From positions 248,001 through 312,000 of the forward strand of contig NZ_JYIJ01000018.1 of assembly GCF_001543895.1 (NCBI RefSeq): a DNA stretch of 64,000 nt, read 5' to 3'. Made by a program: the position numbers and the translations under genes. Positions 6,089 through 27,307 of this stretch are shown here, one piece after another (position 1 is the stretch's first letter; the number at the start of each line of letters is the position of its first letter). A model generated the notes under the pieces. The model worked only from the letters and a program-made list of their open reading frames with translations. It ran no database searches and was not told where the DNA came from. This stretch comes from Carbonactinospora thermoautotrophica. Lineage in GTDB: Bacteria; Actinomycetota; Actinomycetes; Streptomycetales; Carbonactinosporaceae.

Positions 6089-6304
6089 GCGCCCGCCGGT
6101 CGCGCCGAGACTTGTCCGGCGGTACCGACCAGTACCGGCGCAGCCGGACGCACACGCCGGTTGATCGGGATTCGTCGATTCTCGGGATGGTTGTCGGCGG
6201 GCCGCCATAGAGTGGCGGCTGTCGTCCGTGGTTCACGGGATCGCGGAGCTTATGACAGGAGTTTCGGCGGTGGGGGCGCAGCGTTCCGGCGGATCCCGCT
6301 GGAC

Positions 6305-7822: not shown

Positions 7823-9071
7823 GCGAGCGAACCATCGAGCAGAGCAGCGAGCCACAGCGAGGCGGGCGCGTGAGCCGGCTCGCCGACCACCTGACCCGCC
7901 AGGAGGACGAGGAGGTCGCCCGGGCGGTCCGCGTCCTGCTCGCCAATCCGTTCCTCACCGCCGAGCAGGACGAGGCCGCCTTCGACCTGGTGCGGCGCAG
8001 GCGCGAGCGGCTCACGGCCTGGTTCGAGCAGCACTGTGGCTGGCGGTTGCACGTCGACACCCGGCAGCGGTACGCCCGGCTGGTGAAGATCACCGACCGG
8101 CCCGACGCCACCCGGCCGGCCCGCTGGCTGCGGTCCACCCGGGCCGCGTTCGACCGCCGCCGGTACGCCCTGCTGTGCGTGGTCGCCGCGGAGCTGCTCG
8201 TCACACCGGCCACCACGATCGGCCTGCTCGCCGCCCGCGTCACCGAGGCGACGGCGGCGGACCCGCAGGTGCCGACGTTCGACTCCACTCGCCGTGAGGA
8301 ACGCGCCGCGTACGTCGACGCGCTCAAGCTGTTGGAGCGTCTCGGGGTGGTCCGGGCCGTGGACGGGCTGACCGACGCGTTCGTCGACCAGGCCGATGTC
8401 AAGGTGCTCTACCGGGTCGACACCTCCCGGTTGCTGTGGCTGCTCGCCGCTCCGGTCCCACCGTCCAGGCTCAGGGTTCGCGACGTGGCGGCGCTCACCC
8501 GGGAACCGCGGTACGGCGACGCGCCCGACCCCGCGGCCGAGGTGGCGGACACCCAGCGGAACCTGTGGCTGCGTCACTCGATCATGCGTCGCCTGCTCGA
8601 TGACCCGGTCGTCTACCACGCGGACCTGACGGAGGCCCAACGCGCCTACCTGGCCACACCGACCGGCCGGAGGCTGGTCCGGCAGGCCGCCGCGCAGGCC
8701 GGGTTCGTCCTGGAGGAACGCGCCGAGGGGCTGCTGCTGGTCGACCCCGACGCGATCGCCACCGACGAGAAGTTCCCCGACGACCGCAGCCACACCAAGC
8801 ACGCCGCGTTGCTCTGCTCGACGTGCTGGTGTCCGCGGACGGGCCGGTGCCGGAGGAGAAGCTCATCGCGTGGATCACCGAGCGGCTGGAGCGCTTCCCC
8901 GCTTGGGCGAAGACCTACCAGTCCGAGGGCGGGCCGGCCCGGCTCACGCAGGAGGCGGTCGGGCTGCTGTGCGCGTTCGGGCTGGCTGAGCGTACGACCG
9001 AAGGGGTGCGGGCCCGGCCTGCCGCGGCCCGCTACGCGGTGCGACCCGAACCCAGCGGAGGCGCACGATGA
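7819..9071 (+). pseudogene. jetB: jetB of a type II Wadjet system (DUF2398/TIGR02678), broken by a one-base deletion
   Basis: From the GTG at 7819 the frame gives a TIGR02678-like protein up to KFPDDRSHTKHAALL (codon at 8812). The conserved sequence then continues one frame over as LDVLVSADGPVPEEKL (codons from 8817) and ends at the TGA at 9069-9071. Only two bases (TG) separate the two conserved segments, so one base has been lost near 8815. The shifted product would run past 9800 as noise. JetB is the partner of JetA in the clamp complex. The start overlaps jetA and the end overlaps the jetC ATG (9068), so the original operon spacing is kept. Confidence 0.85.
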
Positions 9072-11738
9072 CCGTCACCCGGTTGCGTCCAGCGGGCCGA
9101 GCCGAACGGGCAGGGCCCGCGCGATGGCGGCCGACGCGGGCCGGCATCGTGAACGTCTGGCGCTACTACAACGAGACCTTCCACTTCCACAACGGCCGCC
9201 TGCTGCTGCGCGGTCCGAACGGCACCGGCAAGTCCAAGGCGCTCGAGCTGCTCCTGCCGTACCTGTTCGACGCCAACCTGCGGCCGACCCGGCTGTCCAC
9301 GTTCGGCGGTTCGGAACGGACCATGTTCTGGAACCTGATGGGCGACGGGTACCCGGGCACGACCCGGGTCGGCTACGTCTGGCTGGAGTGCGGGCGCACC
9401 GGCGACGACGGGTGGTTCACCTGCGGCGCGCGGCTGCAGGCGAGCAAGCACAGCCGCAACGTGACCGCGACGTACTTCGTCACGCACCGGCGGATCGACA
9501 CCCCCGGCGGCCTGTCGCTGCTCACCGCCGACGGCCGGCCGCTCACCCGTGGCGACCTGGCCGCCGCGATCGGCGACTCCGGCGGGGTGTTCGACTCGGC
9601 CGCGGACTACCGGCGGATGGTGCGGCACACGCTGTTCCCGGAGTTCACCGAGGAGCAGTACGAGGCGCTGATCTCGGCCCTGCTCAAGCTGCGCACCCCC
9701 AAGCCGTCGGAGCACCTCGATCCCAAGGAGCTGTCGAAGCTGCTCTCCGAGGCGCTGCCCGTCATCGACCAGCAGGACGTCGCCGAGATCGCCGAGGGGT
9801 TCGAGAAGCTCGACCGCCGTCGCGAGGAGCTGGCCAGGCTGGCGCAGGAGGTCGAGGCGGCCCGCGGGCTCGCCGAGCGTAACCGCACCTATGCCCGGCG
9901 GGTGCTGCGCGCCGCCGCGGCCTCGCTCATCTCCGCGACGAGCACGATGGACGGGATCACCCGCAAGGCGCGGGAGAGCCGCGAGGCGTACGAGAAGGCG
10001 AAGCAGCGGCTCGCCGAGCTGACCACCGAGCAGGAGCGTCTCGCGGCCGAGGACGACGAGCTCGCGCACCGAATCGACGGCCTGCAGGAGAGCGACCTGT
10101 TCCGGGAAGGCCAGCAGCTGGACCGCCTGCGCCGGGACGCGGACACGGCCGCGCAGGCGGCGGCCGCCGCGGAACGGAAGGCCGCGGAACGCGCACGCGA
10201 AGCCGACGACGACGCGGCCAAGGCGAGTGCGGTCCAGGCCGCGTACGAACAGGCCGAGCAGGCCGCCGACCGCGCCCGTGGGGAGGCGGGGCAGGCGGCT
10301 GAACGGGTCGGGTTCGCCGCCTCGTTCGAGGAGGTGGCCGCGGCCCGGGACGTCCCGACGGCGCGCAAGCTGCTCCAGGCGGCGGTCGACTCCCGCACCC
10401 GCCAGGTCGATCAGGGGCGCAAGGCACTGTACGAGCACGTGGGCGCGGTCGCCGAGCGGCGCAAGGCCGAGACCCGCCTGGAGGACTGCCGGGAGCAGGA
10501 GGCGCGAGCTGAGGCACGGCTGGTCGAGGCCCAGACGCGCCGGGAGGAGGCGCTGGCGCGGCTCCGGGAGGCGATCGAGCGGTGGTGCTCCGAATGCCGC
10601 GAGCTGCCGCTCGCCGCGCGGCTCGACGAGCTGGTCGACGCCGCCGAGGACGAGAACGCCGTGATGCGCGTCGTCAACGACGCCGCGGCGGCCGTCGCCG
10701 ACGAGCTGACCCGCGCCGAGACCACGCTGGACGCGCGGCGCCAGGCGCTCGCCGAGGAGCGCGCCCGGCTCGACGCGGAGCGCGCGGAGCTGGCCCGGCG
10801 CACGGTGCTCGCCCCCGAACCACCCCGGACGCGCACTGCGGACCGGTCACGCCTGCCGGGCGGCCCGCTGTGGCGGCTCGTCGACTGGCGGCCCGGGGTG
10901 GATGAGTCCACCCAGGCCGGCGTCGAAGCGGCCCTGGAAGCCTCCGGCCTGCTCGACGCGTGGGTGCTGCCGTCCGGAGAGCTGGCGGTCGACGGGCACG
11001 ACACGTTCGCGGACGGAGCGCTCACCACCCCGGCTCCCGGCAGCTCGCTCGCCGACGTGCTCACCGTCGACCCCGACGCGCCGGTGCCCCGGGGCGCCGC
11101 GTTGCTGCGCGGGATCGCCTTCGGCGTGACCGCGCCGGACCACCCGGCCGCGATCGGCGCCGACGGCACCTGGCGGCTCGGCGCAGCGCGAGGCAGCTGG
11201 GCCAAACCCGCGGCAGGCTTCATCGGGGCCGCAGCCCAGGAACGCGCCCGGGCGCGGCGCATCGCCGAGCTCACCGCGCGGATCGAGGACCTGGACGAGC
11301 GCATCGCCGGGGTGCGGGCCGAGCTGGACGCGCTCGCCGGGCGGCGTGAGGCGCTCAACGCCGAGCAGCGCCGCCGGCCAGGCCACGACGAGCTGCGCGC
11401 CGCCACCGGCCAGGTGGCCAGGGCCGAGGCCGAGGTAGCGGCCCGCGCCGACGCGGTAAGCCGCGCCCAGCAGGAGCACGCCGCCGTCGAGCGGCGCGTC
11501 GCCACGGCCCTGCGGCAGCTCTCCCTGGTGGCGGGCGAACACGGCCTGCCGACCGAGGAAGCAGCGCTCGACGCGGTGGACGCGGCGCTCGGGGCGTACC
11601 GCAACAAGTGCCACGCATGGCTCGACCTGCGCCAGCAGGCCGCCACGCTCGCCGGTCAGGCACAGGCCGCTGCCGAGCGGGCGGCCCGATCACGGCGGGA
11701 CGCGGACGCGGCGGCCCAGGAAGCCGCGGACCTGCGGC
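9068..11738 (+). pseudogene. jetC: jetC SMC-like ATPase of a type II Wadjet system (TIGR02680), C-terminal third deleted
   Basis: The first 60 residues contain the SMC-type Walker A (GPNGTGKS, residues 49-56). A Q-loop-like region and long coiled coils rich in Glu/Arg/Ala (about residues 230-620 and 740-890) follow. TIGR02680 proteins are about 1350 aa and end with an ABC signature (LSGGE-like) and Walker B (LLDEAF-like). Neither is present here: at about 11730-11740 the sequence passes into the middle of jetD, and the jetC frame stops at 11755. Without the C-terminal half of the nucleotide-binding domain the ATPase cannot be assembled. The break looks like one deletion removing roughly 1.3 kb of jetC plus the first half of jetD; that size is inferred from family lengths. 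Confidence 0.85.
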
Positions 11739-12431
11739 GACTCCCACGCCCTTGACGACGGCCGCCGGCTGGCGACGTACGTGCTGCGCGCGCTGGCGTG
11801 CCTGTACGACGAGCCACCACCGGTGAACGCCGAGCAACGCCGGGCCCTGTGGCGGAAGGCGGGCCTGGAATGCGACACCCTCTCCACCTCGGTGCTCGTC
11901 GCCGGCCTGCGCCCGCTCGGCGAGGGACCGCTCGCCACCACCACCCGGCTGTGGACGGCGGCCGGGCAGGCGACCCGGCTCACCCTCGCCCAGCTGCGCG
12001 CGGATCCGGTGGCCGGCATCCCGCATCACCAGGTGTGGATCGTCGAGAACCCCTCCGTTCTCGCGCAGGCGCTGGACCGGTTCGGGCCGGGATGCCCGCC
12101 GCTGGTGTGCACCTCGGGCTGGCCGAACACCGCGGTGATCGAGCTGCTGCGGCAACTGCGGGCGGCCGGGGCGGAACTTCGCTGCCACGCGGACTTCGAC
12201 GGCGAGGGGCTGCGCATCGCGGCGTACGTGGTCGCGAAGGCCGGCGCCTCCCCGTGGCGCATGACCACGCGGGACTACCTGAGCGCCGTGCCGGCACACG
12301 GCCCGTCCGTGGGCCGCGTGTCCGAGGTCCCGTGGGACGCGGACCTGGCCGCGGCGTTGCGGCTCAAGGGCGTCACGGTGCTGGAGGAGCGCGTCGCCGA
12401 CTCGCTGCTCGACGACCTCGATGCCGCCTGA
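11736..12431 (+). pseudogene. jetD: jetD of a type II Wadjet system, only the C-terminal TOPRIM-like (DUF2399) half remains
   Basis: The jetD frame is recognisable from GDSHALDDGRR (codon at 11736) to the TGA at 12431, about 231 residues. It includes VWIVENPSVLAQAL (TOPRIM-like Glu), CHADFDGEGLRIA (the DxD-like DFDGEG motif) and VLEERVADSLLDDL at the end. Family members have a DUF3323 N-terminal arm of about 200 aa first; it is missing, and no start codon or ribosome-binding site fits this frame at the junction. JetD is the nuclease that cuts plasmid DNA fed to it by the Jet clamp. The acidic motifs survive, but the protein has lost its N-terminus and its partners are broken. Confidence 0.85.
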
Positions 12432-13294: not shown

Positions 13295-16200
13295 ATGGAC
13301 GTCTTCGAGGTCCACGAGCGGCTGGTGTCCGACTACGCGGAGTTCACCGCCTCCCTCGTGGCGGTCCGCGACGCCCGGATCGCCGAGCATCTCGCCGACG
13401 AGTGGCGCCGGCGCACCCGCTGGCCGGACCCGTGGCTGTCGCTCAACCCGAGGTTCGCCACCGGTGGCTCGGTCGAGGAACTCGTCGCCGAGGGCCTGCT
13501 CCACCCCGAGTGCGCGCGGATCTTCCGCGTCAAGCGCGACCCCGACGATCCCGGCGCGCGGCCGATCGTGCTGCACCGCCACCAGCGCGAGGCGGTGGTC
13601 GCGGCCCGCGAGGGCGACAGCTACGTGCTCACGACCGGGACGGGATCGGGCAAGAGCCTGACCTACATCGTGCCGATCGTCGACTCGGTGCTGCGCGACC
13701 CGGAGCCGGGCCGCATCAAGGCGATCGTCGTCTACCCGATGAACGCGCTGGCGAACAGCCAGCACCACGAGCTCACCCGCTTCCTGTGCTGGGGCTTCCC
13801 AGGCGGGCGCGGCCCGGTGTCGTTCGCCCGCTACACCGGGCAGGAGAGCGAGTCCGACCGCGACCGCATCCTGAAGGAGCGGCCGGACATCCTGCTCACC
13901 AACTACGTGATGCTGGAGTACCTGCTCACCCGGCCGCACGAGCGCGAGGTCCTGCTGGCCGCCGCGCGTGGCCTGCGTTTCCTCGTGCTCGACGAGCTGC
14001 ACACCTACCGCGGACGGCAGGGCGCCGACGTGGCGTTGCTGGTGCGCCGGCTGCGCGACGCCTGCGCCGCGCCGACGCTGCAGTGCGTAGGCACCTCAGC
14101 GACGATGGCGACCGCGCGTACTTTCGCCGAAACCCAGGAGACGGTGGCGGACGTGGCCACCCGGCTGTTCGGGGTGCCGGTCGCGCCGCAGCGGGTGATC
14201 GGCGAGACGCTGGTCCGGGCCACCGCGCGGCAGGACCCGGAGCCGGAGGCGCTGCGGACGGCGATCGGCGACGCCCACCGCACCGGCCGCTCCTACGCCG
14301 AGCTCGCCGCCGACCCGCTCGCCTGCTGGGTGGAGAGCACGTTCGGGCTCACGACCGAGGAGGAGAGCGGCCGGCTGGTCCGCCGCCGTCCCACCCGGGT
14401 ACGGGACGCGGCCGAGGAACTCGCCGAGCGGACCGGGCTGCCGGCCGAGCGGTGCGAGCGGGCGATCCAGGACGTGCTGCGTGCCGGCTCGCGGGCCCGC
14501 CACCCGGAGAGCGGCGCTCCGCTGTTCGCGTTCCGGCTCCACCAGTTCCTCTCCAAGGGCGACACGATCTACGTGAGCCTGGAGCCGGAGGAGGCCCGGC
14601 ACATCACGAGCCAGTACCAGGTGAGCGTGCCCGGCGAGCGGGAAAAGATCCTGCTGCCGCTGGCCTTCTGCCGGGAGTGCGGCCAGGAGTACCTGGTGGT
14701 GGCCCGCACCGAGCAGGGCGGCACGGTGACCTACGGGCCGCGCCAGGAGCAGGACGTGTCGGGCGGCGACGCCGCCAACGGTTACCTGTACGTCAGCACC
14801 GAGCACCCCTGGCCGGACGACCCGGTGGTGGCCGGCCGGCTGCCTGATTCCTGGGTGGCCAACGGGGACGACGGCGACAGCTACGTGCTCCCCCGGCTGG
14901 AGAAGTACCTGCCGCGCCCGGTGTGGGTGGGGCCGGACGGCACGGAGCGCCCGGCAGGCGAAGGACTGCGCGCGGCGTACGTGCCCTCGCCGTTCCGGTT
15001 CTGCCTGCGCTGCCGCGTCTCCTACGAGCAGACCCGCGGCCACGACTTCGCCAAGCTCGCCACGTTCGGTGCCGAGGGCCGCAGCTCGGCGGTGTCGATC
15101 ATCAGCGCGAGCATCGTCCGCAGCCTGCGCGAGTCAGACCTCGACCGCAAGACGCGCAAGCTGCTCACGTTCGTCGACAACCGGCAGGACGCCAGCCTGC
15201 AGGCGGGCCACTTCAACGACTTCGTGCAGGTCACCCAGTTGCGCGGGGCGCTGTACCGGGCGGCGCGCGAGGCCGACGGGCTGTGCCACGACGACGTGGC
15301 CCAGCGGGTGGCCGCCGCGCTCGGCCTGGACCTCCCCGACTTCGCGCAGAACCCGGACGTGAAGTTCAGCCAGCGGGAGGCGGTGTGGCGCGCGTTCCGC
15401 CAGGTGATCGCGCTCCGCGTGTACCTGGACCTGGAGCGCGGCTGGCGGGTCACCATGCCCAACCTGGAGCAGACCGGCCTGATCCGCTTCGACTACGTCG
15501 ACCTCGCCGAGATCGCCGCCGAGCCTGAGTGCTGGGCCGACGTCCACCCAGTGCTGCGCGACGACGATCCGGCGCACCGCGCCGAGCTGGGCCGCATCGT
15601 GCTGGACGAGATGCGCCGCGCCCTCGCGGTCGACGTGGACGTGCTGACGGCGGAGGGTTTCGAGCGGCTGCAGAAGCAGTCCGACCAGCACCTGACCGGC
15701 CCCTGGGCGCTGCCGCAGAACTCGCCCTTGCCGCAGGTGCGCACCGTGTTCGCCACTCCGGCCGGTCGCGGCAGCCCGCGGGCGCACGTCCACTTCACCG
15801 GCCGCTCGGCGCTCGGCCGGTACCTGCGCCGGCCCCGGGAGTTCCCGCACGCGGGCGGCGATCTCACCGTGGACGACGCGCAGAAGATCATCTCTGACCT
15901 GCTGCGCGTGCTGGAGCGGTACGGCCTGCTCACCGTCGCCGTCGACCCCCGCGACGGCGGGGCGCCCGGCTACCGGCTGAAGTCCTCGGCGATCGTCTGG
16001 CGGGCCGGCGACGGCGCCACGGGCGCCCCGGACCCGCTGCGCAAGACGGTCGACCCGGAGGTGGGCGCCAGGGTCAACGCCTTCTTCCGCGACCTGTACC
16101 GCGACGTCGCGGAGAAGCTGGCCGGGCTGTTCGCGGCCGAGCACACCGCCCAGGTCAGGGCGGACGTGCGGCAGCAGCGGGAGGAGGCCTTCCGGGAAGG

Positions 16201-18493
16201 CGACCTGCCGGTGCTGTACTGCTCGCCCACCATGGAGCTGGGCGTGGACATCTCCACCCTGAACGCGGTGGCGATGCGCAACGTGCCGCCCACCCCGGCC
16301 AACTACGCGCAGCGGTCCGGCCGGGCCGGGCGGAGCGGGCAGCCCGCCCTCGTCACCACCTACTGCTCCACCGGGTCGGCTCACGACCAGTACTACTTCC
16401 GGCGCTCGGAGCTGATGGTGGCCGGCAGCGTCGCCCCGCCCCGGCTCGACCTCACCAACGAGGACCTGCTGCGCTCGCACGTCCACGCGATCTGGCTGGC
16501 CGAGACCGGGGCGAGCCTGGGCCGGCGGATGACGGACGTGCTCGATGTCTCCGGGGAGAAGCCGAGCCTGGAGATCTTCCCCCGCCTGTGGGACCAGCTC
16601 ACCGACCCCGCCGCCCAGCGCCGCGCGGTCGAGCGGGCGCACGCCGTGTTGGACGGGTTGTCCGACCTGTTGAAGGACAGCGCTTGGTGGTACGACGGCT
16701 GGATCGAGGACACGGTTCGGGCGGCGCCCCGGATGTTCGACGCGGCCTGTGAGCGGTGGCGCTCGCTGTACCGCAACGCCCTGGCCGACCAGGAGGAGCA
16801 GAACCGCCGGGTGCTCGACCACGCCACCTCTCCGGAGGCCCGCCGCCGGGCGCAGCGGCGCCGCCTGGAGGCGGAGAACCAGCTCCGGCTGCTGAAGAAC
16901 GAGGACGAGGAGGAGATCTTCAGCGACTTCTACTCCTACCGGTACTTCGCGTCCGAGGGCTTCCTGCCCGGGTACGCCTTCCCCAGGCTGCCGCTGGCCG
17001 CCTACATCCCGCCGCAGCGCGGCGCGGACGGCGCTTACATCCAGCGGCCCCGGTTCATCGCGATCAACGAGTTCGGCCCGGGCGCGCTGATCTACCACGA
17101 GGGGCAGCGCTACCAGGTGCAGCGGGTGCAGCTCCCGGCGGGCGACGGCGGGGACGTGGCCACCACCGACGCCTCGATCTGCACCGGGTGCGGCTACTGG
17201 CACGACCGGCGGGCTGGCGTCGAGGTCTGCGAGCAGTGCGACATGCGGCTCGGGCGGCCCACGACCGGCCTGATGCACCTGCAGACCGTGTTCACCGTGC
17301 GACGGGAGCGCATCTCCTCCGACGAGGAGGAGCGCCGCCGCGCCGGCTTCGAGCTGCAGACCAGCTACCGGTTCAGCGACCACGGGGCGCGGTCCGGCCG
17401 GCTGCCGGCCGAGGTCCGGGCGGCGGACGGATCGGTGCTGGCCGACCTGATCTACGGCGACACCGCCACCGTGCGGGTGATCAACCGGGGGCGGCGGCGT
17501 CGCCGCGACCGGAGCGACGTCGGGTTCTGGCTCGACACGGTCAACGGCCGGTGGCTGTCGGAGAAGCAGGCCGCCGAGCTGAGCGCGCCCGAGGACGCTG
17601 AGCTGGACGACCGCGACAGCGCCGCCCGGGCGCTGCGGGTGGTGCCGTACGTGGAGGACCGGCGCAACATCCTGGTGCTGCGGCTGGCCACGCCGGTGCC
17701 CGAGCACGTCGCGGTGACCCTGCGGTACGCGCTGGAACGCGGCACGGAGACGGTGTTCCAGTTGGAGGACTCCGAGCTGGTCAGCGAGCAGCTTCCCGAC
17801 CCCGAGGCCCGGGGCCGGATGTTGTTCATCGAGAGCGCCGAGGGCGGTGCCGGGGTGCTGCGGCGGCTGCAGGCCGAGCCGGACGCCCTGGCCCGGGTCG
17901 CCCGTGCCGCTTTGGAGGTCATGCACGTCGACCCGGAGACCGGCGCCGACCTCGGGCACGCGCCTGGGGCGCGGGAGCGCTGCGAGCGGGGCTGCTACGA
18001 CTGCCTGCTCTCCTACGGCAACCAGGCCGACCACGCGCGTATCGACCGGCTCGCCGCGGTCGACCTGCTGCGCGCCCTGACCGCCGCCGAGGTCCGGGCG
18101 ACTGGCGGCTCGGCGGCGCCGGGCCCGGACCTCGGCGGCGGGGCGGAGGAGCGGCTCGCCCGGCTGGCGGACGCCTGCCGCTCGGACCTGGAGCAAAAAT
18201 TCCTGCGGTTCCTCGACGAGCGGCGCTACCGTCTTCCGGATGAAGCGCAGACGCTCGTGCCCGAGGCGGTCGCCCGCCCCGACTTCGTCTACCGCCTGCC
18301 CGGCGGCGATGTCGCGGTGTTCGTGGACGGCCCGTACCACGACGCCGCCGAGGTGGCGGAGCGTGATCTCAAAGCGACGTACCGACTGGAGGAGCAGGGC
18401 TGGCTGGTGATCCGGATCCGCCACGACGACGAGTGGGACACGCTGGTACGCGAGTACCCGAGCGTTTTCGGACCTGGACGGGGGGAGCGATGA
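13295..18493 (+). CDS. Very large DExH helicase with DUF1998 and a C-terminal Vsr/PDDEXK-like nuclease domain (DISARM-related)
   Basis: 1732 aa. Helicase motor part 1 has Walker A TGTGSGKS (Lys120), the DELH box (residues 233-236) and VGTSATM. Part 2 has LYCSPTMELGVDIS near residue 975 and QRSGRAGR near 1006, so the two RecA lobes are separated by a large insert. A Cys-rich stretch near 1310 (CTGCGYWHDR ... CEQCDM) and the DUF1998 signature CERGCYDCLLSYGNQ near 1567 are MrfA/DrmA-B-like. The last 90 residues (PDFVYRLPGGDVAVFVDGPYHD ... ERD ... GWLVIRIR) look like a Vsr/MTES_1575-type PDDEXK nuclease. The ATG has a strong ribosome-binding site, and the gene overlaps the SNF2 helicase by ATGA. 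It probably translocates on and cuts invading DNA as part of a modification-linked defence system. All motifs appear intact. Confidence 0.85.
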   Translation: MDVFEVHERLVSDYAEFTASLVAVRDARIAEHLADEWRRRTRWPDPWLSLNPRFATGGSVEELVAEGLLHPECARIFRVKRDPDDPGARPIVLHRHQREAVVAAREGDSYVLTTGTGSGKSLTYIVPIVDSVLRDPEPGRIKAIVVYPMNALANSQHHELTRFLCWGFPGGRGPVSFARYTGQESESDRDRILKERPDILLTNYVMLEYLLTRPHEREVLLAAARGLRFLVLDELHTYRGRQGADVALLVRRLRDACAAPTLQCVGTSATMATARTFAETQETVADVATRLFGVPVAPQRVIGETLVRATARQDPEPEALRTAIGDAHRTGRSYAELAADPLACWVESTFGLTTEEESGRLVRRRPTRVRDAAEELAERTGLPAERCERAIQDVLRAGSRARHPESGAPLFAFRLHQFLSKGDTIYVSLEPEEARHITSQYQVSVPGEREKILLPLAFCRECGQEYLVVARTEQGGTVTYGPRQEQDVSGGDAANGYLYVSTEHPWPDDPVVAGRLPDSWVANGDDGDSYVLPRLEKYLPRPVWVGPDGTERPAGEGLRAAYVPSPFRFCLRCRVSYEQTRGHDFAKLATFGAEGRSSAVSIISASIVRSLRESDLDRKTRKLLTFVDNRQDASLQAGHFNDFVQVTQLRGALYRAAREADGLCHDDVAQRVAAALGLDLPDFAQNPDVKFSQREAVWRAFRQVIALRVYLDLERGWRVTMPNLEQTGLIRFDYVDLAEIAAEPECWADVHPVLRDDDPAHRAELGRIVLDEMRRALAVDVDVLTAEGFERLQKQSDQHLTGPWALPQNSPLPQVRTVFATPAGRGSPRAHVHFTGRSALGRYLRRPREFPHAGGDLTVDDAQKIISDLLRVLERYGLLTVAVDPRDGGAPGYRLKSSAIVWRAGDGATGAPDPLRKTVDPEVGARVNAFFRDLYRDVAEKLAGLFAAEHTAQVRADVRQQREEAFREGDLPVLYCSPTMELGVDISTLNAVAMRNVPPTPANYAQRSGRAGRSGQPALVTTYCSTGSAHDQYYFRRSELMVAGSVAPPRLDLTNEDLLRSHVHAIWLAETGASLGRRMTDVLDVSGEKPSLEIFPRLWDQLTDPAAQRRAVERAHAVLDGLSDLLKDSAWWYDGWIEDTVRAAPRMFDAACERWRSLYRNALADQEEQNRRVLDHATSPEARRRAQRRRLEAENQLRLLKNEDEEEIFSDFYSYRYFASEGFLPGYAFPRLPLAAYIPPQRGADGAYIQRPRFIAINEFGPGALIYHEGQRYQVQRVQLPAGDGGDVATTDASICTGCGYWHDRRAGVEVCEQCDMRLGRPTTGLMHLQTVFTVRRERISSDEEERRRAGFELQTSYRFSDHGARSGRLPAEVRAADGSVLADLIYGDTATVRVINRGRRRRRDRSDVGFWLDTVNGRWLSEKQAAELSAPEDAELDDRDSAARALRVVPYVEDRRNILVLRLATPVPEHVAVTLRYALERGTETVFQLEDSELVSEQLPDPEARGRMLFIESAEGGAGVLRRLQAEPDALARVARAALEVMHVDPETGADLGHAPGARERCERGCYDCLLSYGNQADHARIDRLAAVDLLRALTAAEVRATGGSAAPGPDLGGGAEERLARLADACRSDLEQKFLRFLDERRYRLPDEAQTLVPEAVARPDFVYRLPGGDVAVFVDGPYHDAAEVAERDLKATYRLEEQGWLVIRIRHDDEWDTLVREYPSVFGPGRGER

Positions 18494-21309
18494 GCAGGTA
18501 CGCGCCGGGCAGCCTGGTGGCGGCGCGCGGCCGGGAGTGGGTGGTGCTGCCCGGGAGCACCGAGGAGTTCGTGGTCGCCCGGCCCCTGGGCGGGGACGCC
18601 GACTTCGTCGCCGGGCTGTTCCCCGAGGAGGTGAGCCCGGCCTCGCTGTCCCGCCCGTCAGCCGATCCGGCCGAGATCGGCGACCATCGCGGCGCGAGCC
18701 TGCTGCGGACCGCCCTGCGCATCGGGTTCCGCTCCAGCGCCGGGCCGTTCCGGTCGCTCGCCGAGATCGCGGTCGAGCCGCGCCAGTACCAGCTCGTGCC
18801 GCTGCTGCTGGCGCTGCGCATGGAGACCGTGCGCCTGCTCATCGCCGACGACGTCGGCATCGGCAAGACGATCGAGGCCGCCCTGGTCGCCAAGGAGCTG
18901 CTGGAGCAGGGGGACGCCGCCGGGCTCACCGTGCTCTGCTCCCCGGCGCTGGCCGAGCAGTGGGCGGCGGAGCTGCGGGAGAAGTTCGCGATCGACGCGA
19001 CCCTGGTGCTGCCGTCCACGGCCGCCCGGCTGGAGCGCGACCTGCCGCCGGGCCAGTCGCTGTTCGACCACCACCGCTACACGGTGGTGTCCACCGACTT
19101 CATCAAGAGCGACCTGCGCCGGGCCGCGTTCCTGCGCACCTGCCCGGACCTGGTGATCGTGGACGAGGCGCACACCTGCGTGCCGGCGGGGGCCGGGTCG
19201 GGCCGGCGGCAGCGCCAGCTCCGGTACGAGCTGCTGCGCGGGCTCGCCGACAAGCCCGACCGGCACCTGATCCTGGTCACCGCCACCCCGCACAGCGGCA
19301 AGGAGGGGTCCTTCCGGGATCTCCTCGGGCTGCTGGACCCCGCGCTCGCCCAGCTCGACCTGGAGCAGGTGAAGAACCGGGAGCGCCTGGCCCGGCACTT
19401 CGTGCAGCGCCGCCGCCGCGACATCCGTCACTTCCTGGACGAGGAGACCCCGTTCCCGCTCGACCGGCAGCTCCGGGAGGTGACGTACGAACTGGGCGCG
19501 GAGTACAAGGCGCTGCACGAGGCGGTGCTCGACTACGCGCGGGCCTCGGTGACCGGGCCGGAGGGGCTCGCCCAGCGGGTGCGCTGGTGGTCGGCGTTGG
19601 CGCTGCTCCGCTCGGTCGCCTCCTCGCCCCGGGCGGCCGCCGCCACCCTGCGCACCCGGGCCGCCGCGGCCGGGGCCGCCACCGTCGCCGAGGCCGACGA
19701 GTTGGGCCGCGCCGCCGTGCTCGACGCCACCGACGAGGACACCCTGGAAGGGGTCGACGCCCCGCCGGGCGCGGATGACGAGACCCTGCCGGCCGCGGAC
19801 CGCAGGCGGCTGCTGGAGTTCGCGAAGAAGGCGGAGCAGCTGGAGGGGCCGCAGTGCGACCGCAAGCTCGCCAAGCTCATCGACGAGGTCAAGGCGCTGC
19901 TCGCCGACGGGTACGACCCGATCGTCTTCTGCCGGTTCATCCCGACCGCCGAGTACGTGGCCGAGCACCTGGCCAAGGCGCTGGGCCGCAAGGCCCACGT
20001 GGAGGCGGTCACCGGGACGCTCCCGCCCGAGGAGCGCGCCACCCGGGTCGCCGACCTCGCCGGCCGGGACGGCCGGCACGTGCTGGTGGCCACCGACTGC
20101 CTGAGCGAGGGCATCAACCTGCAGGAGCACTTCCAGGCCGTGGTCCACTACGACCTGGCCTGGAACCCGACCCGGCACGAGCAGCGCGAGGGCCGGGTGG
20201 ACCGGTTCGGGCAGCGGCGGCCGTACGTCCGCGCGGTCACCCTCTACGGCGTGGACAACGCCATCGACGGTGTCGTGCTGGACGTGCTGATCAGGAAGGG
20301 CCGGAAGATCCGTCACGACACCGGGGTCGCGGTCCCGGTCCCCGACCGGGGGGAGACCCTGCTCAACGCGCTGGTCGAGGGGCTGCTGCTGCGCCGCGAG
20401 GAGGGCCGACAGCTCGCCCTCGACGTCGAGGTGACCAAGCACCGGGACGAGCTGCACCGGGAGTGGGAGAGCGCGGCGGAGCGGGAGTCGAAGGCGATCA
20501 CCAAGTACGCGCACAGCGCGATCAAGCTGGACGAGGTGCGCGCCGAGGTCGACGCGATCCGCGCCGCGCTCGGCGCCAAGGCCGACATCGCCGGCTTCGT
20601 CCGCGACACGCTGGCCGAGCTGAAGGTGCCGGTGCGGGACACCGGTGACGGGTTCGCCGCCCCGACCCACCTGCTGCCGGCCGGGACGCGGCACATGCTC
20701 ACCGCCGCGCTCGGCACGACCCCGGAGGAGCTGGTCTTCCACCGCGACCTGCCGGTCCCGCCGGGGGAGCACGCCCTGGTGCGCACCGACCCGGCGGTGG
20801 CGGCGCTGGCCCGCTACGTCTTCGACACCGCGCTCGACCCGGCTGAGGCGGAGCGCCCGGCCCGGCGCTGCGGGGTGATCCGCACCGCAGCGGTGCCGGC
20901 GCGCACCACCCTGCTGCTGGTGCGCTACCGCTTCCACCTCACCCTGCCCGGCCGGCAGGAGAAACGCACCGTGGTGGCCGAGGATGCGCGCATGCTCGCC
21001 TACCGGGGCCGCGCCGACGAGCCGGAGTGGCTCACCGACGAGGAGGTGACCGAGCTGCTCGCCGCGCAACCGGACGCGAACCTGCTCCCGGAGCTGGTCC
21101 GCCGCCAGGCGGAGCGGGCGATCGACGACCTGGACGCCCTGCAGGACGCGCTCGACGCGCGCGGCGGCGAGCTGGCCGAGGAGCTGCACGCCGCCCACCA
21201 GCGGGTGCGCGGGGTGGTCGGGGCGACGCGCCGCGGCCTGTCCGTGACGTTCCAGCCGCGGGCCGACGTGATCGGGGTGTACGTGTACCTGCCGGGAGGC
21301 GCCCGGTGA
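18490..21309 (+). CDS. SNF2-family helicase (DrmD-like)
   Basis: 939 aa. Motifs in order: a Q-type region RQYQLVPLLLALRM, Walker A LIADDVGIGKTIEAA (about residues 116-130), LVIVDEAHTC (DEAH, about 222), LVTATPHSGKEG, motif IV-like PIVFCRFIPTAEYVAEHL, motif V VATDCLSEGINLQE and motif VI EQREGRVDRFGQ (about 566). A charged coiled-coil-like tail follows. This is the RapA/DrmD branch of SNF2 translocases, which in class 1 DISARM pairs with an adenine methyltransferase. The ATG overlaps the upstream helicase stop by four bases, and its own stop overlaps the next gene (GTGA), so the three subunits are translated in step. No lesion seen. Confidence 0.85.
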   Translation: MSRYAPGSLVAARGREWVVLPGSTEEFVVARPLGGDADFVAGLFPEEVSPASLSRPSADPAEIGDHRGASLLRTALRIGFRSSAGPFRSLAEIAVEPRQYQLVPLLLALRMETVRLLIADDVGIGKTIEAALVAKELLEQGDAAGLTVLCSPALAEQWAAELREKFAIDATLVLPSTAARLERDLPPGQSLFDHHRYTVVSTDFIKSDLRRAAFLRTCPDLVIVDEAHTCVPAGAGSGRRQRQLRYELLRGLADKPDRHLILVTATPHSGKEGSFRDLLGLLDPALAQLDLEQVKNRERLARHFVQRRRRDIRHFLDEETPFPLDRQLREVTYELGAEYKALHEAVLDYARASVTGPEGLAQRVRWWSALALLRSVASSPRAAAATLRTRAAAAGAATVAEADELGRAAVLDATDEDTLEGVDAPPGADDETLPAADRRRLLEFAKKAEQLEGPQCDRKLAKLIDEVKALLADGYDPIVFCRFIPTAEYVAEHLAKALGRKAHVEAVTGTLPPEERATRVADLAGRDGRHVLVATDCLSEGINLQEHFQAVVHYDLAWNPTRHEQREGRVDRFGQRRPYVRAVTLYGVDNAIDGVVLDVLIRKGRKIRHDTGVAVPVPDRGETLLNALVEGLLLRREEGRQLALDVEVTKHRDELHREWESAAERESKAITKYAHSAIKLDEVRAEVDAIRAALGAKADIAGFVRDTLAELKVPVRDTGDGFAAPTHLLPAGTRHMLTAALGTTPEELVFHRDLPVPPGEHALVRTDPAVAALARYVFDTALDPAEAERPARRCGVIRTAAVPARTTLLLVRYRFHLTLPGRQEKRTVVAEDARMLAYRGRADEPEWLTDEEVTELLAAQPDANLLPELVRRQAERAIDDLDALQDALDARGGELAEELHAAHQRVRGVVGATRRGLSVTFQPRADVIGVYVYLPGGAR

Positions 21310-24300
21310 GCCAGACCGCCTACACCGCCGTGCGCATCGAGGGGAACCTGCTGCCCCATGACCTGCTGGAGGCGATCCAGCGCGGCGACCACGACGTTCC
21401 CGGGATCCGCCCGGAGGACTACCACCTGGCCGCCGGGGAGCGGCTGAACCACGCGGCGAGCCGCAAGTGGGACTACCTGACCGGCGTGTACCGGTCGTTC
21501 CGGGACCGGCTCGCCCAGCTCCCCGAGACCGACCCCGCGACCACGCTCACCCGGGAGCGCTGGCTGCTCATCCTCCTCGACGAGCTGGGCTTCGGCCGCC
21601 TGCCCTACCAGCGCGGCGGGCTCGCCGCCGAGGGGGAGACCTACCCGGTCAGCCACGCCTGGCAGCAGGTGCCGATCCACCTCCTCGGTTGGCGCACCGA
21701 GCTGGACCGGCGCACCGGCGGCGGCAAGGCGGGCCGCGCGCCGCAGGCGATGCTCCAGGAGTTCCTCAACGCCAGCGACGAGCACCTGTGGGGCGTGCTG
21801 TCGAACGGCCGGCAGCTTCGCATCCTGCGCGACTCCACCAACCTGGTCGGCGCGGCGTACGTCGAGTTCGACCTGGAGGCGATCTTCGACGGCGAGCTGT
21901 ACAGCGAGTTCGTGCTGCTGTACGCGCTGGCGCACGTGTCCCGCTTCGAGGCGCGCCCGGTCGGCTCCGAGGGCGCGCCGGTGCCGGCCGGCTGCTGGCT
22001 GGAGCGCTGGCGGGCGTACGCCGCCGAGACGGGTGAGCGGGCCCGGGAGCGCATGCGCGACGGGGTCAAGGCGGCGCTGGAACGGCTCGGCACCGGCTTC
22101 CTGCGCGCCAACCCCAAGCTGGCCCAGGCGCTGGCCGAGGGCCGGCTGAAGAAGGAGGACTTCCAGCACGAGCTGCTGCGCCTGGCCTACCAGCTCATCT
22201 TCTGCTTCGTGGCCGAGGACCGCGGGGTGCTGCTCGACCCGCAGGCCCCGGAAGCCGCGCGCCAGCGCTACCGCGACTACTTCTCCACCGCCCGGCTGCG
22301 CGAGATCGCGGCCCGCCGGTACGGCGACCGGCACACCGACCTGTGGCAGGCGCTGGTGTACGTGCTCGACGGGCTGGGCAGCGGCAACGACCGGCTCGGC
22401 CTGCCCGCGCTCGGCGGGCTGTTCTTCCGGGACGAGAAGCTGGAGAGCCAGCAGCTCGACCTCGACGCCGACCCGGCGCGGGTCCCGCCCGACTTCCTGC
22501 GCCGCTGCCCGCTGGCCAACGCCGACCTGCTGGAGGCGGTGCGGCACCTGGCCACGTTCCGCGACCGGCAGGGGCGGCTGCACGCCACCAACTTCCGCCA
22601 CCTGGGGTCGGAGGAGCTGGGCAGCGTGTACGAGTCGCTGCTGGAGCTGATCCCGGCCGTGGAACCCGGCCCGTCCTTCGTGCTGCGGGAGCGGCCCGGC
22701 AACGAGCGCAAGACCACCGGCTCGTACTACACCCCGGACCCGCTCATCCAGTGCCTGCTCGACACCGCGCTCGACCCGGTCATCGAGGAGCACGCCAAGC
22801 GCGGCGTGCCCGACGACCTGCTGAAGATCACCGTCTGCGACCCGTCCTGCGGCTCCGGCCACTTCCTGGTCGCCGCCGCCCGGCGGATCGCCAAGCGGTA
22901 CGCGGCCATGGTCACCGGCGAGGACGAGCCGGTGCCGGAGAAGGTCCGCGAGGCCATGCACGAGGTGGTCGCCCGGTGCGTGTACGGGGTGGACATCAAC
23001 CCGCTCGCCGCCGAGCTGGCCAAGGTGTCGCTGTGGCTGGAGTCGGTGCGGCCGGGCAAGCCGCTCGCCTTCCTCGACAGCAAGATCAAGGTCGGCAACG
23101 CGCTGCTCGGGGTGACGCCGAAGCTCCTGGAGGCGGGCATCCCCGACGAGGCGTTCAAGCCGATCGAGGGAGACGACAAGAAGATCGCCGCCAGCCTGCG
23201 CAAGCAGAACGAGAAGGAACGCAGCTACCAGCTCGGACTCGACCTGTTCTCCGGCCCGGTCGTCCGCGTGGGCAACGTGGAGATGGCCAAGCAGGCCACC
23301 GCGCTGGCCGCCGCCCCGGTGCGTACCCTCGCCGACATCCGCGAGCAGGCGCGCCGGTTCCGGGAGCTGGAGAACCACCCGGAACGGGTGCGGCGCAAGC
23401 GCGTGGCCGACGCCTGGTGCGCGGCGTTCGTCTGGCGCAAGCACGCCGACGCCCCGGAGGCCATCACCACCGCGACGCTGCGCCGGCTCGACGAGGGCGG
23501 CGAGCTGCCGAAACCGGTGGCCGAGGAACTGGACCGGCTTGCCCACAGCTACCGCTTCTTCCACTGGCATCTGGAGTTCCCCGAGATCTTCGAGGTGGCC
23601 GACGAGGAGCGCCCCGACCACAACCCCGACACGGGTTGGCGGGGCGGTTTCACCTGCGTGCTGGGCAACCCGCCGTGGGAGAAGATCGAGTTCAAGGAGG
23701 AGGAGTTCTTCGCCTCTCGCCGGCCCGAGATCGCGCAGGCGCGAAACGCCGCCGCGCGCAAGAAGATGATCCAGGTGTTGGCCGACAGCGGCGACGAGAC
23801 GGACGGCAAGCTCTACGCCGAGTACCGCGACGAGTTGCGGAAGACAGTGGCATGGAGTCACTCCCTGCGTTCCTCCGGCCGCTATCCGCTCACCGGAAGC
23901 GGCCGACTGAACACCTATGCCGTGTTCGCTGAGACCGCTCGCGCTCTTCTCACCCCGCACGGCCGCAGTGGCTTGGTGCTGCCCACCGGCATCGCCACCG
24001 ACGCCACGACCGCGCTGTTCTTCGGTGATCTGGTACGCAACGCCAAGCTGGCGGCGTTCCTGGAGTTCGAGAACGAGGCGTTCATTCTGAGCCGCGACGT
24101 CGATCACAGTGTTCGTTTCTGCCTCTTGACAACAACGGGACGCGCCCGCGAGGCAGACCGAGTCCGATTCGCATTCGGCATTCGTTATATTGAAGATCTG
24201 CCCGATCGGCAACTAACTATGTCTGCCGCTGATATCCGGCTCGTCAATCCGAACACCGGAACCGTGCCGCTGTTCCGGTCCTGGCGCGAAGCGGAGATCA

Positions 24301-25361
24301 CGCTCGATATATATCGGCGCGTGCCAGTGCTGTGGCGGGAAAGTCCGCAGAAGAACCCTTGGAAGTTGTCCTTTTCGCAAGGGATCTTCAACATGGCCAG
24401 CGACGCTGGCCTGTTCCACATCCGTGCTGAGCTGGAGGCCGAAGGCTGGGAGCTGCATGGCGACATCTTCGTCAAGGATGGCAAGCGAATGTTGCCGCTC
24501 TACGAGGCGAAGATGATCCATCACTTCGACCATCGGTTCGGCACCTACGAAGGCCAGACGCAGGCACAAGCGAACATGGGTACTCTGCCTCGTCCAACTC
24601 TGGTTCAAAAGGCCGACCCGACCTTTATGGTTCTGCCCCGGTACTGGGTCGCGGAAGCCGAGGTCGAGGAGCGGCTGAAGAACCGGTGGGACCGTGGCTG
24701 GCTGCTCGGCTGGCGGGATATCTGCCGCAGTAGCCACGAACGCACGGTGATTCCGGCAGTCATCCCATGGGCGGCTGTGGGACACACCTTGCCGCTGATG
24801 TTGTCCGAGAACGAGCGGCTGCCGCTTCTCTACGCCAACTTGACGGCTTTCGTACTCGACTACGTCGCCCGGCAGAAGATGGCGGGAACCCATCTGACCT
24901 ACGGGTACCTGAATCAGCTCGCGGTGCTCCCTCCCGAGCGCTACGACGGTCCCGCGCCATGGGCTCCTGAGCAGGAATTGGCCGACTGGATCAGCTCGCG
25001 CGTCCTCGAACTCACCTACACCGCCTGGGACCTGGAGCCGTTCGCCCGTGACCTCGGGGACGACGGGCCGCCGTTCGTGTGGGACGAGGAGCGGCGGTTC
25101 GCCATGCGTGCCGAGCTGGACGCCGCCTTCTTCCACCTCTACGGGGTCGAGCGCGACGACGTGGCCTACATCATGGACAGCTTCCGGGCGTTCCGGAACA
25201 ACGACCCCGAGCGGTTCGCCCGCACCAAGGAGCTGATCCTCCAGGTGTACGACGCCATGGCCAAGGCGATGGAGACCGGCGAGCCGTACCGGACCATCCT
25301 CGACCCGCCGCCTGGCCAGGGGCCGCGCCACCCGGAGTCCAGCCGGCCGGACTGGATGTGA
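21306..25361 (+). CDS. Large N6-adenine DNA methyltransferase, Eco57I/class 1 DISARM (DrmMI)-like
   Basis: 1351 aa. N-terminal 450 residues are helical and specificity-like. Motif X is TTGSYYTPDPLIQCLLDTAL, motif I is DPSCGSGHFLVAAARR (about residue 512), and motif IV is GNPPWEKIEF (about 787), the NPPW type typical of N6-adenine methylases. The C-terminal third should carry the target-recognition region. The GTG start is fixed by the GTGA overlap with the SNF2 gene. In a defence role it would mark self DNA, which the two helicases then spare. The stretch around 24.1-24.7 kb has clearly lower GC (about 57% in 24121-24240 against 71% in 22921-23040), as if the recognition domain had been exchanged. 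No restriction subunit is fused here; the cutting activity may be in the first gene. Confidence 0.85.
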   Translation: MSQTAYTAVRIEGNLLPHDLLEAIQRGDHDVPGIRPEDYHLAAGERLNHAASRKWDYLTGVYRSFRDRLAQLPETDPATTLTRERWLLILLDELGFGRLPYQRGGLAAEGETYPVSHAWQQVPIHLLGWRTELDRRTGGGKAGRAPQAMLQEFLNASDEHLWGVLSNGRQLRILRDSTNLVGAAYVEFDLEAIFDGELYSEFVLLYALAHVSRFEARPVGSEGAPVPAGCWLERWRAYAAETGERARERMRDGVKAALERLGTGFLRANPKLAQALAEGRLKKEDFQHELLRLAYQLIFCFVAEDRGVLLDPQAPEAARQRYRDYFSTARLREIAARRYGDRHTDLWQALVYVLDGLGSGNDRLGLPALGGLFFRDEKLESQQLDLDADPARVPPDFLRRCPLANADLLEAVRHLATFRDRQGRLHATNFRHLGSEELGSVYESLLELIPAVEPGPSFVLRERPGNERKTTGSYYTPDPLIQCLLDTALDPVIEEHAKRGVPDDLLKITVCDPSCGSGHFLVAAARRIAKRYAAMVTGEDEPVPEKVREAMHEVVARCVYGVDINPLAAELAKVSLWLESVRPGKPLAFLDSKIKVGNALLGVTPKLLEAGIPDEAFKPIEGDDKKIAASLRKQNEKERSYQLGLDLFSGPVVRVGNVEMAKQATALAAAPVRTLADIREQARRFRELENHPERVRRKRVADAWCAAFVWRKHADAPEAITTATLRRLDEGGELPKPVAEELDRLAHSYRFFHWHLEFPEIFEVADEERPDHNPDTGWRGGFTCVLGNPPWEKIEFKEEEFFASRRPEIAQARNAAARKKMIQVLADSGDETDGKLYAEYRDELRKTVAWSHSLRSSGRYPLTGSGRLNTYAVFAETARALLTPHGRSGLVLPTGIATDATTALFFGDLVRNAKLAAFLEFENEAFILSRDVDHSVRFCLLTTTGRAREADRVRFAFGIRYIEDLPDRQLTMSAADIRLVNPNTGTVPLFRSWREAEITLDIYRRVPVLWRESPQKNPWKLSFSQGIFNMASDAGLFHIRAELEAEGWELHGDIFVKDGKRMLPLYEAKMIHHFDHRFGTYEGQTQAQANMGTLPRPTLVQKADPTFMVLPRYWVAEAEVEERLKNRWDRGWLLGWRDICRSSHERTVIPAVIPWAAVGHTLPLMLSENERLPLLYANLTAFVLDYVARQKMAGTHLTYGYLNQLAVLPPERYDGPAPWAPEQELADWISSRVLELTYTAWDLEPFARDLGDDGPPFVWDEERRFAMRAELDAAFFHLYGVERDDVAYIMDSFRAFRNNDPERFARTKELILQVYDAMAKAMETGEPYRTILDPPPGQGPRHPESSRPDWM

Positions 25362-25420
25362 CCCTACGCCGGCTGTTCAGGTAAAACGGTCCCGCTGAGG
25401 TGATCTTGGGGGAGGGTACG

Positions 25421-26272
25421 GTGACCGAACGCCTCGCGCAGCGGCTCCGGCTGGCGCTGGAGATCCTGGCCCGGCATCCGGATGGCCTGCCACAGCAGGA
25501 GCTGTGGCGTCACGTGATCGAACGGCTGCCTCTCGACGAGGACGAACAGCGGCCGATCAGTACCGGAACGCCGTACGGCCGGCACGCCTTCACCATGAGC
25601 ACCGTCGAGTTGGTGAAAGCCGGTTGGCTGCACAAGGAGCGGGGCGTGTGGCATGCGACCGGCGTCGGCCGCAAGGCGCTCGCCGACCACCCCGACCCCA
25701 AGGACTTCTTCTCGGCCAAGAACGCCGCGTACCAATCTTGGAACCGCAATCGCGACAAGTTCAGCCGCGCCGAGCGCCTGGTCGAGGGGATCTCCGAGGG
25801 GCAGTGGGTGGCGGTCACCGACGTCGCTGCGATCACCGGGCTCGACCCGGACCGGCTGGTCGCCTACCTGCAGGGGACACGCCCCGAGGGGTGGCACCGG
25901 GTCCTCGACCCGGACGGCTCGCCGCCCAACGCCGCGCACCTGAGCGAGCACGAGCGGCAACGCTGGTGCCGCCTGCTCGAAAACGAGGATGTGACGGTCT
26001 TCCTCGGCCGGGCGGACCCGATGCGCCGGGTCGACCCCGAGGACCTGCGCCAGCTCGCCGCCGAGGAGCCGGGGGAGGAGCCGGCCGGCCCTCGCGCTTG
26101 GCTGGTGCGCGGGTCCAGCGTCCACGGGTACAACCTGGTGCCCGACTGGCTGAAGAAGGGGTACTGCTCGCTGTCGGCGGCCCGGCTGCGCGAGCTGCCC
26201 GCCGCGACCGCCGCCGTGCTCGCCACCTCCGGAATCGTCAAGGTGACCCCGGGGTCACGGTCGGGGCTTTGA
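25421..26272 (+). pseudogene. McrB-like DNA-reading N-terminus joined to the start of McrC (remnant)
   Basis: The GTG at 25421 has GGGGGAGG five bases upstream. Residues 1-85 look like an Mrr_N winged helix (LARHPDGLPQQELWRHV ... GVWHATGVGRKAL). Residues about 110-160 (WVAVTDVAAITGL ... GWHRVLDPDGS) resemble an MGMT-like DNA-binding fold. Residues about 225-255 (AWLVRGSSVHGYNLVP) match the segment that precedes the AAA GTPase in actinomycete McrB proteins. No AAA domain follows; instead the text runs into ATAAVLATSGIVKVTPG, which is McrC-like, and stops at TGA (26270-26272) where family logic expects Trp. I therefore read it as a deletion scar of a methylation-dependent McrBC restriction pair. 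A stand-alone reader protein remains possible. Confidence 0.55.
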
Positions 26273-26612: not shown

Positions 26613-26840
26613 ATGGCCCGTATATCGGAGCGGCAGGCGCTCACCCTGCGCCTGCCACCGGAGCTTCACGAGCAATTGCGCGCGTACGCGTTCCTGACCA
26701 AGCGGTCGATCAACGAGACGCTGACCCGGGTCATCGCCGACTGGCTGGCGGGGCCGGGAAAGGCGGAGATGGTCGAGGCCGCCACCAAGCAGGGCCAGGA
26801 GGCGCACCGCGTGGCGCTCGACAAGCTCCGCGATCTGTGA
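26613..26840 (+). CDS. Ribbon-helix-helix antitoxin of a Fic/Doc pair
   Basis: 75 aa. LTLRLPPELHEQLRAYAF followed by KRSINETLTRVIADWL is a clear ribbon-helix-helix DNA-binding domain (beta strand plus two helices), and the remaining 25 residues are a charged helix that may cap the toxin. The ATG has AAGGAGG six bases upstream. The toxin gene begins 20 bases after its stop. In actinobacteria Doc toxins often pair with this type of antitoxin rather than with Phd. The pair sits between two copies of the mcrC end, so it was probably added after the McrBC locus decayed. Confidence 0.8.
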   Translation: MARISERQALTLRLPPELHEQLRAYAFLTKRSINETLTRVIADWLAGPGKAEMVEAATKQGQEAHRVALDKLRDL

Positions 26841-26860
26841 AGGAATGGTGAAAGTCGTCG

Positions 26861-27307
26861 ATGACGATCTACCTGACGCCGGATGAGGTCCAGCGGATCC
26901 ACGACCGGGAGATCGGTGAGGAGGGCCTTCCCGGCGTCGATCGGGGGAGGCTGGAGGCGGCGGTGTGCCGCTGCCAGGCCACCGTATTCGGTGAGGATGC
27001 GTTCCCGACGATCCACGACAAGGCCGCCGCCCTGTTCGCGGGGATCATCAAGAACCACCCGTTCGCCGACGGCAACAAGCGCACCGCCGTCCTGGCCACG
27101 TACGTCTTCTACGCCCTGAACGGGTACACCCTGGTCGCCGAGGCCGGTGAGATCGTCGCGCTGGCTCTCGCCACGGCGCAGGGCTACATCGATCTCGACG
27201 AGACCCGGTACGAGGTCGCGCTGGAGACCATCGCGGCGCGCCTGGCCGGGTGGGCCCAGCCCATCAAGTTCTACGACCCCGCGCTCGACGAGGGCGACCT
27301 GGGATAG
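26861..27307 (+). CDS. Fic/Doc family toxin
   Basis: 148 aa, typical Doc length (about 125-150). The Fic-domain core motif is HPFADGNKRTAVLATYVF, with the catalytic His, the acidic residue and the GNKR phosphate-binding part all present. An upstream IHDKAAALFAGIIKN helix and a downstream NGYTL hairpin complete the fold. Doc proteins phosphorylate elongation factor Tu, while Fic proteins transfer AMP; the short length and the antitoxin partner favour Doc. It lacks the inhibitory S/TxxxE(G/N) motif as far as I can see, consistent with inhibition by the separate antitoxin. Intact. Confidence 0.85.
   Translation: MTIYLTPDEVQRIHDREIGEEGLPGVDRGRLEAAVCRCQATVFGEDAFPTIHDKAAALFAGIIKNHPFADGNKRTAVLATYVFYALNGYTLVAEAGEIVALALATAQGYIDLDETRYEVALETIAARLAGWAQPIKFYDPALDEGDLG

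Follow-up and report, generated by a model that had tools for sequence, protein, structure and literature searches.

The window analysed here is a stretch of 64,000 nucleotides from Carbonactinospora thermoautotrophica (NCBI RefSeq assembly GCF_001543895.1, contig NZ_JYIJ01000018.1, forward-strand positions 248,001 to 312,000; contig C18 below), and our subject is a three-gene operon within it which very probably represents an anti-phage system of ARMADA type I. Its genes, taken from the listed open reading frames (ORFs) and from homology, are the following.

13295-18493, + strand: P0001, 1732 amino acids; YprA-like superfamily 2 (SF2) helicase with DUF1998 and a C-terminal Vsr-type nuclease (ArmC-type).
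18490-21309, + strand: P0002, 939 amino acids; RapA/BrxHII-like SNF2 helicase (ArmA-type), a homolog of ArmA of Escherichia coli ATCC 8739.
21306-25361, + strand: P0003, 1351 amino acids; PglX/type IIG-like N6-adenine methylase (ArmB-type), a homolog of E. coli ArmB.

All three genes are full-length and co-directional, and the four-base overlaps to which the sequence-only reading had drawn attention (ATGA between P0001 and P0002, GTGA between P0002 and P0003) are indeed present in the ORFs. The Pfam domains agree with this gene structure: DEAD, Helicase_C and MZB (the DUF1998 region) in P0001, SNF2/Helicase_C in P0002 and Eco57I/N6 methylase in P0003. The guanine-cytosine (GC) content at third codon positions is 0.96, 0.98 and 0.91, respectively. 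Relatives were taken as the best 80 from a contig scan, and the 65 with all three genes on one contig were treated as complete loci. The relatives are found in Actinomycetota, Chloroflexota, Deinococcota, Acidobacteriota, Bacillota and other phyla. In every one of the 65 complete loci the order and strand are those of the window, the helicases are never separated from the methylase, and no invariant fourth gene is found. The three genes are a unit whose order is conserved far beyond chance. The window gene order also occurs in relatives on plasmids of Nocardioides, Deinococcus and Roseomonas, an Acidithiobacillus relative has its operon interrupted by an insertion sequence (IS) element and a toxin-antitoxin pair, and in cyanobacteria and Haloquadratum the SNF2-methylase pair precedes the YprA gene, matching the preprint of Bell et al. 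(2025; PMC12458937).

The sequence-only reading had also proposed that DrmA and DrmB functions are fused in the first protein and that a different nuclease-like domain ends it. Both proposals hold: helicase and DUF1998 are carried by one protein of 1732 residues, and the predicted fold of its C-terminus matches Vsr. The following regions of P0001 can be distinguished.

13577-14110, + strand: DEAD/RecA1 region, residues 95-272, with Walker A TGTGSGKS and DELH; Pfam DEAD 1.8e-25; strongly conserved columns.
16124-16339, + strand: Helicase_C/RecA2 region, residues 944-1015; Pfam 2.1e-12.
17180-17239, + strand: CxxC...CxxC zinc motif, C1296, C1299, C1312 and C1315; conservation 1.00 over 96 rows.
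17720-18007, + strand: MZB/DUF1998 domain, residues 1476-1571; PF09369 8.5e-8, above cut-off; C1563, C1567 and C1570 invariant.
18188-18490, + strand: predicted Vsr/EDxHD-type nuclease, residues 1632-1732, with E1633, D1663, D1678, H1682 and D1691.

For the C-terminus Pfam provides a hint only, MTES_1575, below cut-off. The last 146 residues were represented by an AlphaFold model (predicted local distance difference test, pLDDT, 89) and compared by VIA-align of Foldseek candidates, which outperformed plain Foldseek, the latter giving no significant match for this model or for that of the P0003 N-terminal domain. The top ranks are taken by I-Bth0305I (Z 9.3) and Vsr (1cw0, Z 8.9, 2.5 A over 92 residues). 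However, a mitoribosomal protein comes close to these scores, and so the fold match alone is moderate evidence. The motif residues E47, D77, D92, H96 and D105 (domain-model numbering) are invariant in 41 relatives, which were chosen for having the motif.

The methylase P0003 can be divided into three parts.

21306-22025, + strand: N-terminal PD-(D/E)XK-like domain, first 240 residues, lacking D/ExK; S116, H117 and H125 invariant; pLDDT 90.
22680-23720, + strand: methylase core, residues 459-805, with the S-adenosylmethionine (SAM) motif DPSCGSGHFL at 512 and NPPW at 788-791; delimited from Pfam Eco57I/N6_Mtase and conservation.
23853-25055, + strand: putative target-recognition region, residues ~850-1250, with lower third-position GC.

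PADLOC matches P0003 to DrmMI and type IIG (194 bits). In VIA-align the nearest structures to the N-terminal model are IIG and HsdR nucleases (DrdV, Z 8.3 with a large root-mean-square deviation; BpuSI, Z 7.6; EcoR124I HsdR, Z 6.0), and a PD-(D/E)XK-like fold is thus tentative, since the best rows reach only Z 6-8. No D/ExK motif is present in this domain in an alignment of 35 relatives, and so P0003 would be expected to mark DNA but not to cut it. Within residues 1-240 a re-purposed site may be formed by S116-H117 and H125, which are invariant, together with Q151 and N155. Third-position GC falls to 0.62-0.82 in the recognition region as opposed to 0.92-1.00 over residues 1-850, and the same dip is seen in 34 of 59 homologs, a pattern consistent with recognition modules having been exchanged repeatedly, though no proof of it. 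A search of 396 genomes for the donor of the low-GC region retrieved no recent donor, the nearest sequence being 53% identical.

Tool-based labels for this operon are contradictory, pointing to Druantia, Dpd and DISARM at once, and the published definition of ARMADA resolves them. In type I, reported as abundant in Actinomycetota, a YprA-like helicase is followed by a BrxHII/RapA-like helicase and a PglX-like methylase; the first protein is described as OB-CON-DUF1998 with a fused Vsr-type nuclease, and with BrxA-like, MarR-like and coiled-coil insertions (PMC12458937). The window operon is alike in gene order, in the fusion of DUF1998 with a Vsr-type domain and in having no ArmD, as tblastn with E. 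coli ArmD found no match in the window. Of the OB-CON-DUF1998 portion, the MZB/DUF1998 part is the one recognised in P0001, and the McrBC partner of some relatives is a remnant here. The type II clusters of E. coli ATCC 8739 and NCTC 12900 contain homologous ArmA, ArmB and ArmC (aligned parts 23-34% identical), but their order is ArmA-ArmB-ArmC-ArmD, with ArmD a GajB-like helicase that carries a RelE-like domain; the window has neither that order nor ArmD. In a tree of YprA helicases with long deep branches, built without the preprint's type I reference WP_108720193.1, P0001 clusters with about 93 order-conserved rows, separate from Druantia, DISARM and E. coli ArmC (support 87-95). As a representative of ARMADA type I the window operon is good but unremarkable, its protein set showing no departure from the published description.

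The Druantia label arises because DruE3 is the best PADLOC match of P0001 (327 bits, compared with 48 bits, 1e-13, for DrmA). In Druantia III, however, DruE is paired with DruH and carries PLD (phospholipase D) nuclease domains, whereas P0001 is accompanied by a RapA-like helicase and a methylase and ends in a Vsr-type nuclease domain; no Druantia partner gene was found among the flanking ORFs scanned by PADLOC. The likeness to Dpd lies in P0002, for which the PADLOC model "DpdE" (PDLC02853) gives 1014 bits over the full length, followed by DrmD with 262 bits. In NCBIfam the same protein scores 191 bits for DpdE against a curated cut-off of 500, and 294.6 bits for DrmD (NF038317) against 610, and none of the three proteins reaches any NCBIfam curated cut-off. 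A Dpd system can be ruled out: the TGT family (PF01702) has no match in the whole genome, while 14 of 14 control genomes were positive, and without any TGT-family protein there is no DpdA. The PDLC02853 model seems to describe ARMADA helicases rather than Dpd.

The sequence-only reading had left a choice between an undersampled DISARM branch and a distinct system. A relation to DISARM stands, given that class 1 likewise combines an SNF2 helicase, an adenine methylase, a YprA-like helicase and DUF1998 functions; a DISARM branch does not, nor does an undescribed system, as the operon matches ARMADA type I. If this were a DISARM subtype with drmA and drmB fused and drmC replaced by the C-terminal nuclease, the common SNF2 helicase (NCBIfam DrmD 295 bits, although below 610), the DrmMI-like methylase and the 1e-13 match of P0001 to DrmA would be explained. 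In class 1 DISARM, however, DrmA and DrmB are separate and accompanied by the PLD nuclease DrmC, and the operon does not score as ordinary DISARM: PADLOC favours DruE3 over DrmA for P0001, as above, and P0002 stays below the NCBIfam cut-off for DrmD. DrmC is absent from the locus, as had been noticed, with no PLDc_2 match on C18; matches elsewhere adjoin drmB on C11 and C14. The same absence extends to the 65 complete relatives, in which the three-gene unit is conserved without drmC and the DrmC profile finds no match, despite recovering both DrmC genes of the window's own genome (its sources). This profile replaced a PLD-motif regular expression, discarded for missing the PLD domains of E. 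coli DruE. Absence of DrmC alone would not exclude DISARM, because Bravo et al. (PMC9142583) report that nuclease as non-essential. Nevertheless, true drm genes reside elsewhere in the same genome, which was searched family by family (drmB and drmC at C11:200506-202673; drmA, drmB and drmC at C14:194447-200552; drmA and drmB at C19:916455-921778, with no PLD gene found nearby), and DrmAB falls on a very long separate branch of the tree. Taken as a whole, a DISARM subtype is very improbable. In a PLDc_2 search of 40 genomes, 10 were comparable by coordinate and one (G001) had a listed PLD match within 30 kb of the operon; its divergent orientation and 1047-amino-acid frame rule it out as DrmC. 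It is likewise very improbable that the operon is an ordinary restriction-modification system, of the type IIG or BREX sort, to which two accessory helicases have been added. P0003 does resemble IIG methylases and PglX, and its N-terminal fold recalls the nuclease domains of BpuSI and HsdR, but without D/ExK in the 35 relatives it should not cut alone, a scan of flanking ORFs in the window revealed neither pglZ nor brxC, and both helicases stay with P0003 in the 65 loci.

As an ARMADA type I system, the operon would most likely act in non-abortive restriction of unmarked phage DNA. By analogy, P0003 would methylate adenine at a specific site and so mark host DNA, while P0002 and P0001 would load on unmarked or replicating phage DNA, moving along it and opening it at the expense of ATP. 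The Vsr-type domain may then nick or cut the phage DNA, such that replication stops and the cell survives. This scheme draws on the genetics of ARMADA II in E. coli, where defence is non-abortive and requires all four genes, the Walker A motifs of both helicases and the methylase NPPW (PMC12458937), on the structure of DISARM DrmAB, whose activating signal is unmethylated DNA bearing a single-stranded overhang (PMC9142583), and on the biochemistry of Druantia III DruE, which acts on single-stranded replication intermediates (PMC13192584).

The last step of the scheme is the most debatable. Across 94 relatives the nuclease motif is intact in 58 (the window and 57 others) and degenerate in 36, and on a tree built without the nuclease domain its degeneration amounts to at least seven changes, with the rest of the operon kept. 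Close Streptomyces relatives of the window (L014, L016, L046, L048 and L078) are among the degenerate cases, and further examples are seen in the C-terminal 130 residues of the helicases of L041, L044, L050, L073 and L085; the window copy and a second copy in the same genome have the motif intact. Such repeated decay of the type I nuclease seems to be unreported in the main text of PMC12458937, where this nuclease is described as predicted active.

Several points weigh against our interpretation. With the motif degenerate in 36 of 94 relatives, there must be operons for which cleavage by the Vsr-type domain is dispensable. The phage experiments of PMC12458937 concern a type II cluster, and type I has none. 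The tree omits the type I reference and its deep forks have moderate support, while the BrxA-like, MarR-like and coiled-coil insertions lie outside the comparison, the P0001 model covering the C-terminal domain only. In an alternative scenario the helicases themselves would stall or strip phage replication, the Vsr domain being structural or regulatory, and partners such as McrBC would cut where needed. The repeated decay of the motif in otherwise maintained operons speaks for such a block, as do the reported dispensability of DrmC in DISARM (PMC9142583) and the McrB or McrC genes found downstream in 17 of 57 relatives. In contrast, the motif preserved in the window and 57 other rows suggests selection, and the state of the nuclease shows no supported association with McrBC presence, a comparison comprising 5 independent pairs only. 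We consider this scenario possible, though not probable; it concerns the mechanism and is compatible with ARMADA I identity, and an optional nuclease is the strongest rival to the scheme above.

A further variation on ARMADA type I is found at the other end of the helicase. In 39 relatives the helicase frame extends upstream by ~330-600 codons containing HRDxKPxN, DFG and APE motifs, and the one example tested matches Pfam Pkinase at 2e-46; the ARMADA I helicase of these relatives bears an apparently active Ser/Thr kinase as an N-terminal fusion. On the tree the fused forms make up one actinomycete clade (39 of 40 rows) with a single loss (2 changes); they are L015, L017-L022, L049, L051-L061, L063-L065, L067, L069-L072, L074-L077, L080, L081, L083, L084, L090, L091, L104 and L106. 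Both ARMADA copies of the window's genome are without the fusion. It also appears unreported in the main text of PMC12458937, in which the word "kinase" is absent.

The association with McrBC, mentioned by Bell et al. (2024, 2025; the latter PMC12458937), is represented in the window by one feature downstream of the operon.

25400-26272, + strand: truncated McrB-like N-terminus, comprising an Mrr_N wing and the start of the next domain, with no GTPase and no mcrC; Pfam Mrr_N below cut-off.

Its identity comes from tblastn matches with McrB of Nocardioides pNOCA01 and with the second copy that the same genome carries. In that genome a second ARMADA I operon lies on C19 (~392025-404145), its genes 59-72% identical to those of the window; downstream of it come AIPR, then an McrB-like gene containing an in-frame stop, then McrC. 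The surrounding region (C19:374000-411000; L008, L009) is a second defence island that also contains DruE-like and Hsp70-NYN genes and an ArmD-like protein divergent to the operon. Four loci have an ArmD-like gene, of a kind ascribed to ARMADA II, upstream of the type I operon and on the other strand (L008:15667-18021, L070:2813-4918, L085:7750-9801 and L096:7479-8951). Just downstream of the window operon, at 26613-27307, a small ORF precedes a Fic/Doc-family gene, probably a toxin-antitoxin pair. The segment 6161-12431 of the window holds a decayed Wadjet operon (JetABCD type 2), in which JetA is split over two frames (6161-6610 and 6656-7822), the JetB ORF (7819-9882) matches over part only, the JetC ORF (9068-11755) is missing the C-terminal third of the profile and JetD (11781-12431) the N-terminal half of its own.

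An operon that looked "DISARM-like" is thereby assigned to ARMADA type I, a branch for which the preprint holds no experiment, and the kinase-fused and nuclease-decayed relatives add to its interest. In this context we put forward, with considerable doubt, that ARMADA type I may be a helicase-methylase block with an optional nuclease, in which the Vsr domain would have decayed repeatedly, McrBC been gained and lost, and defence in the kinase clade be switched by phosphorylation. PglW, the kinase of Pgl/BREX-2, offers a parallel for defence switched in this way. With its three genes and intact nuclease motif the window operon offers a compact cassette for experiments, and the natural occurrence of nuclease-degenerate and kinase-fused versions beside plain ones makes the mechanism testable.

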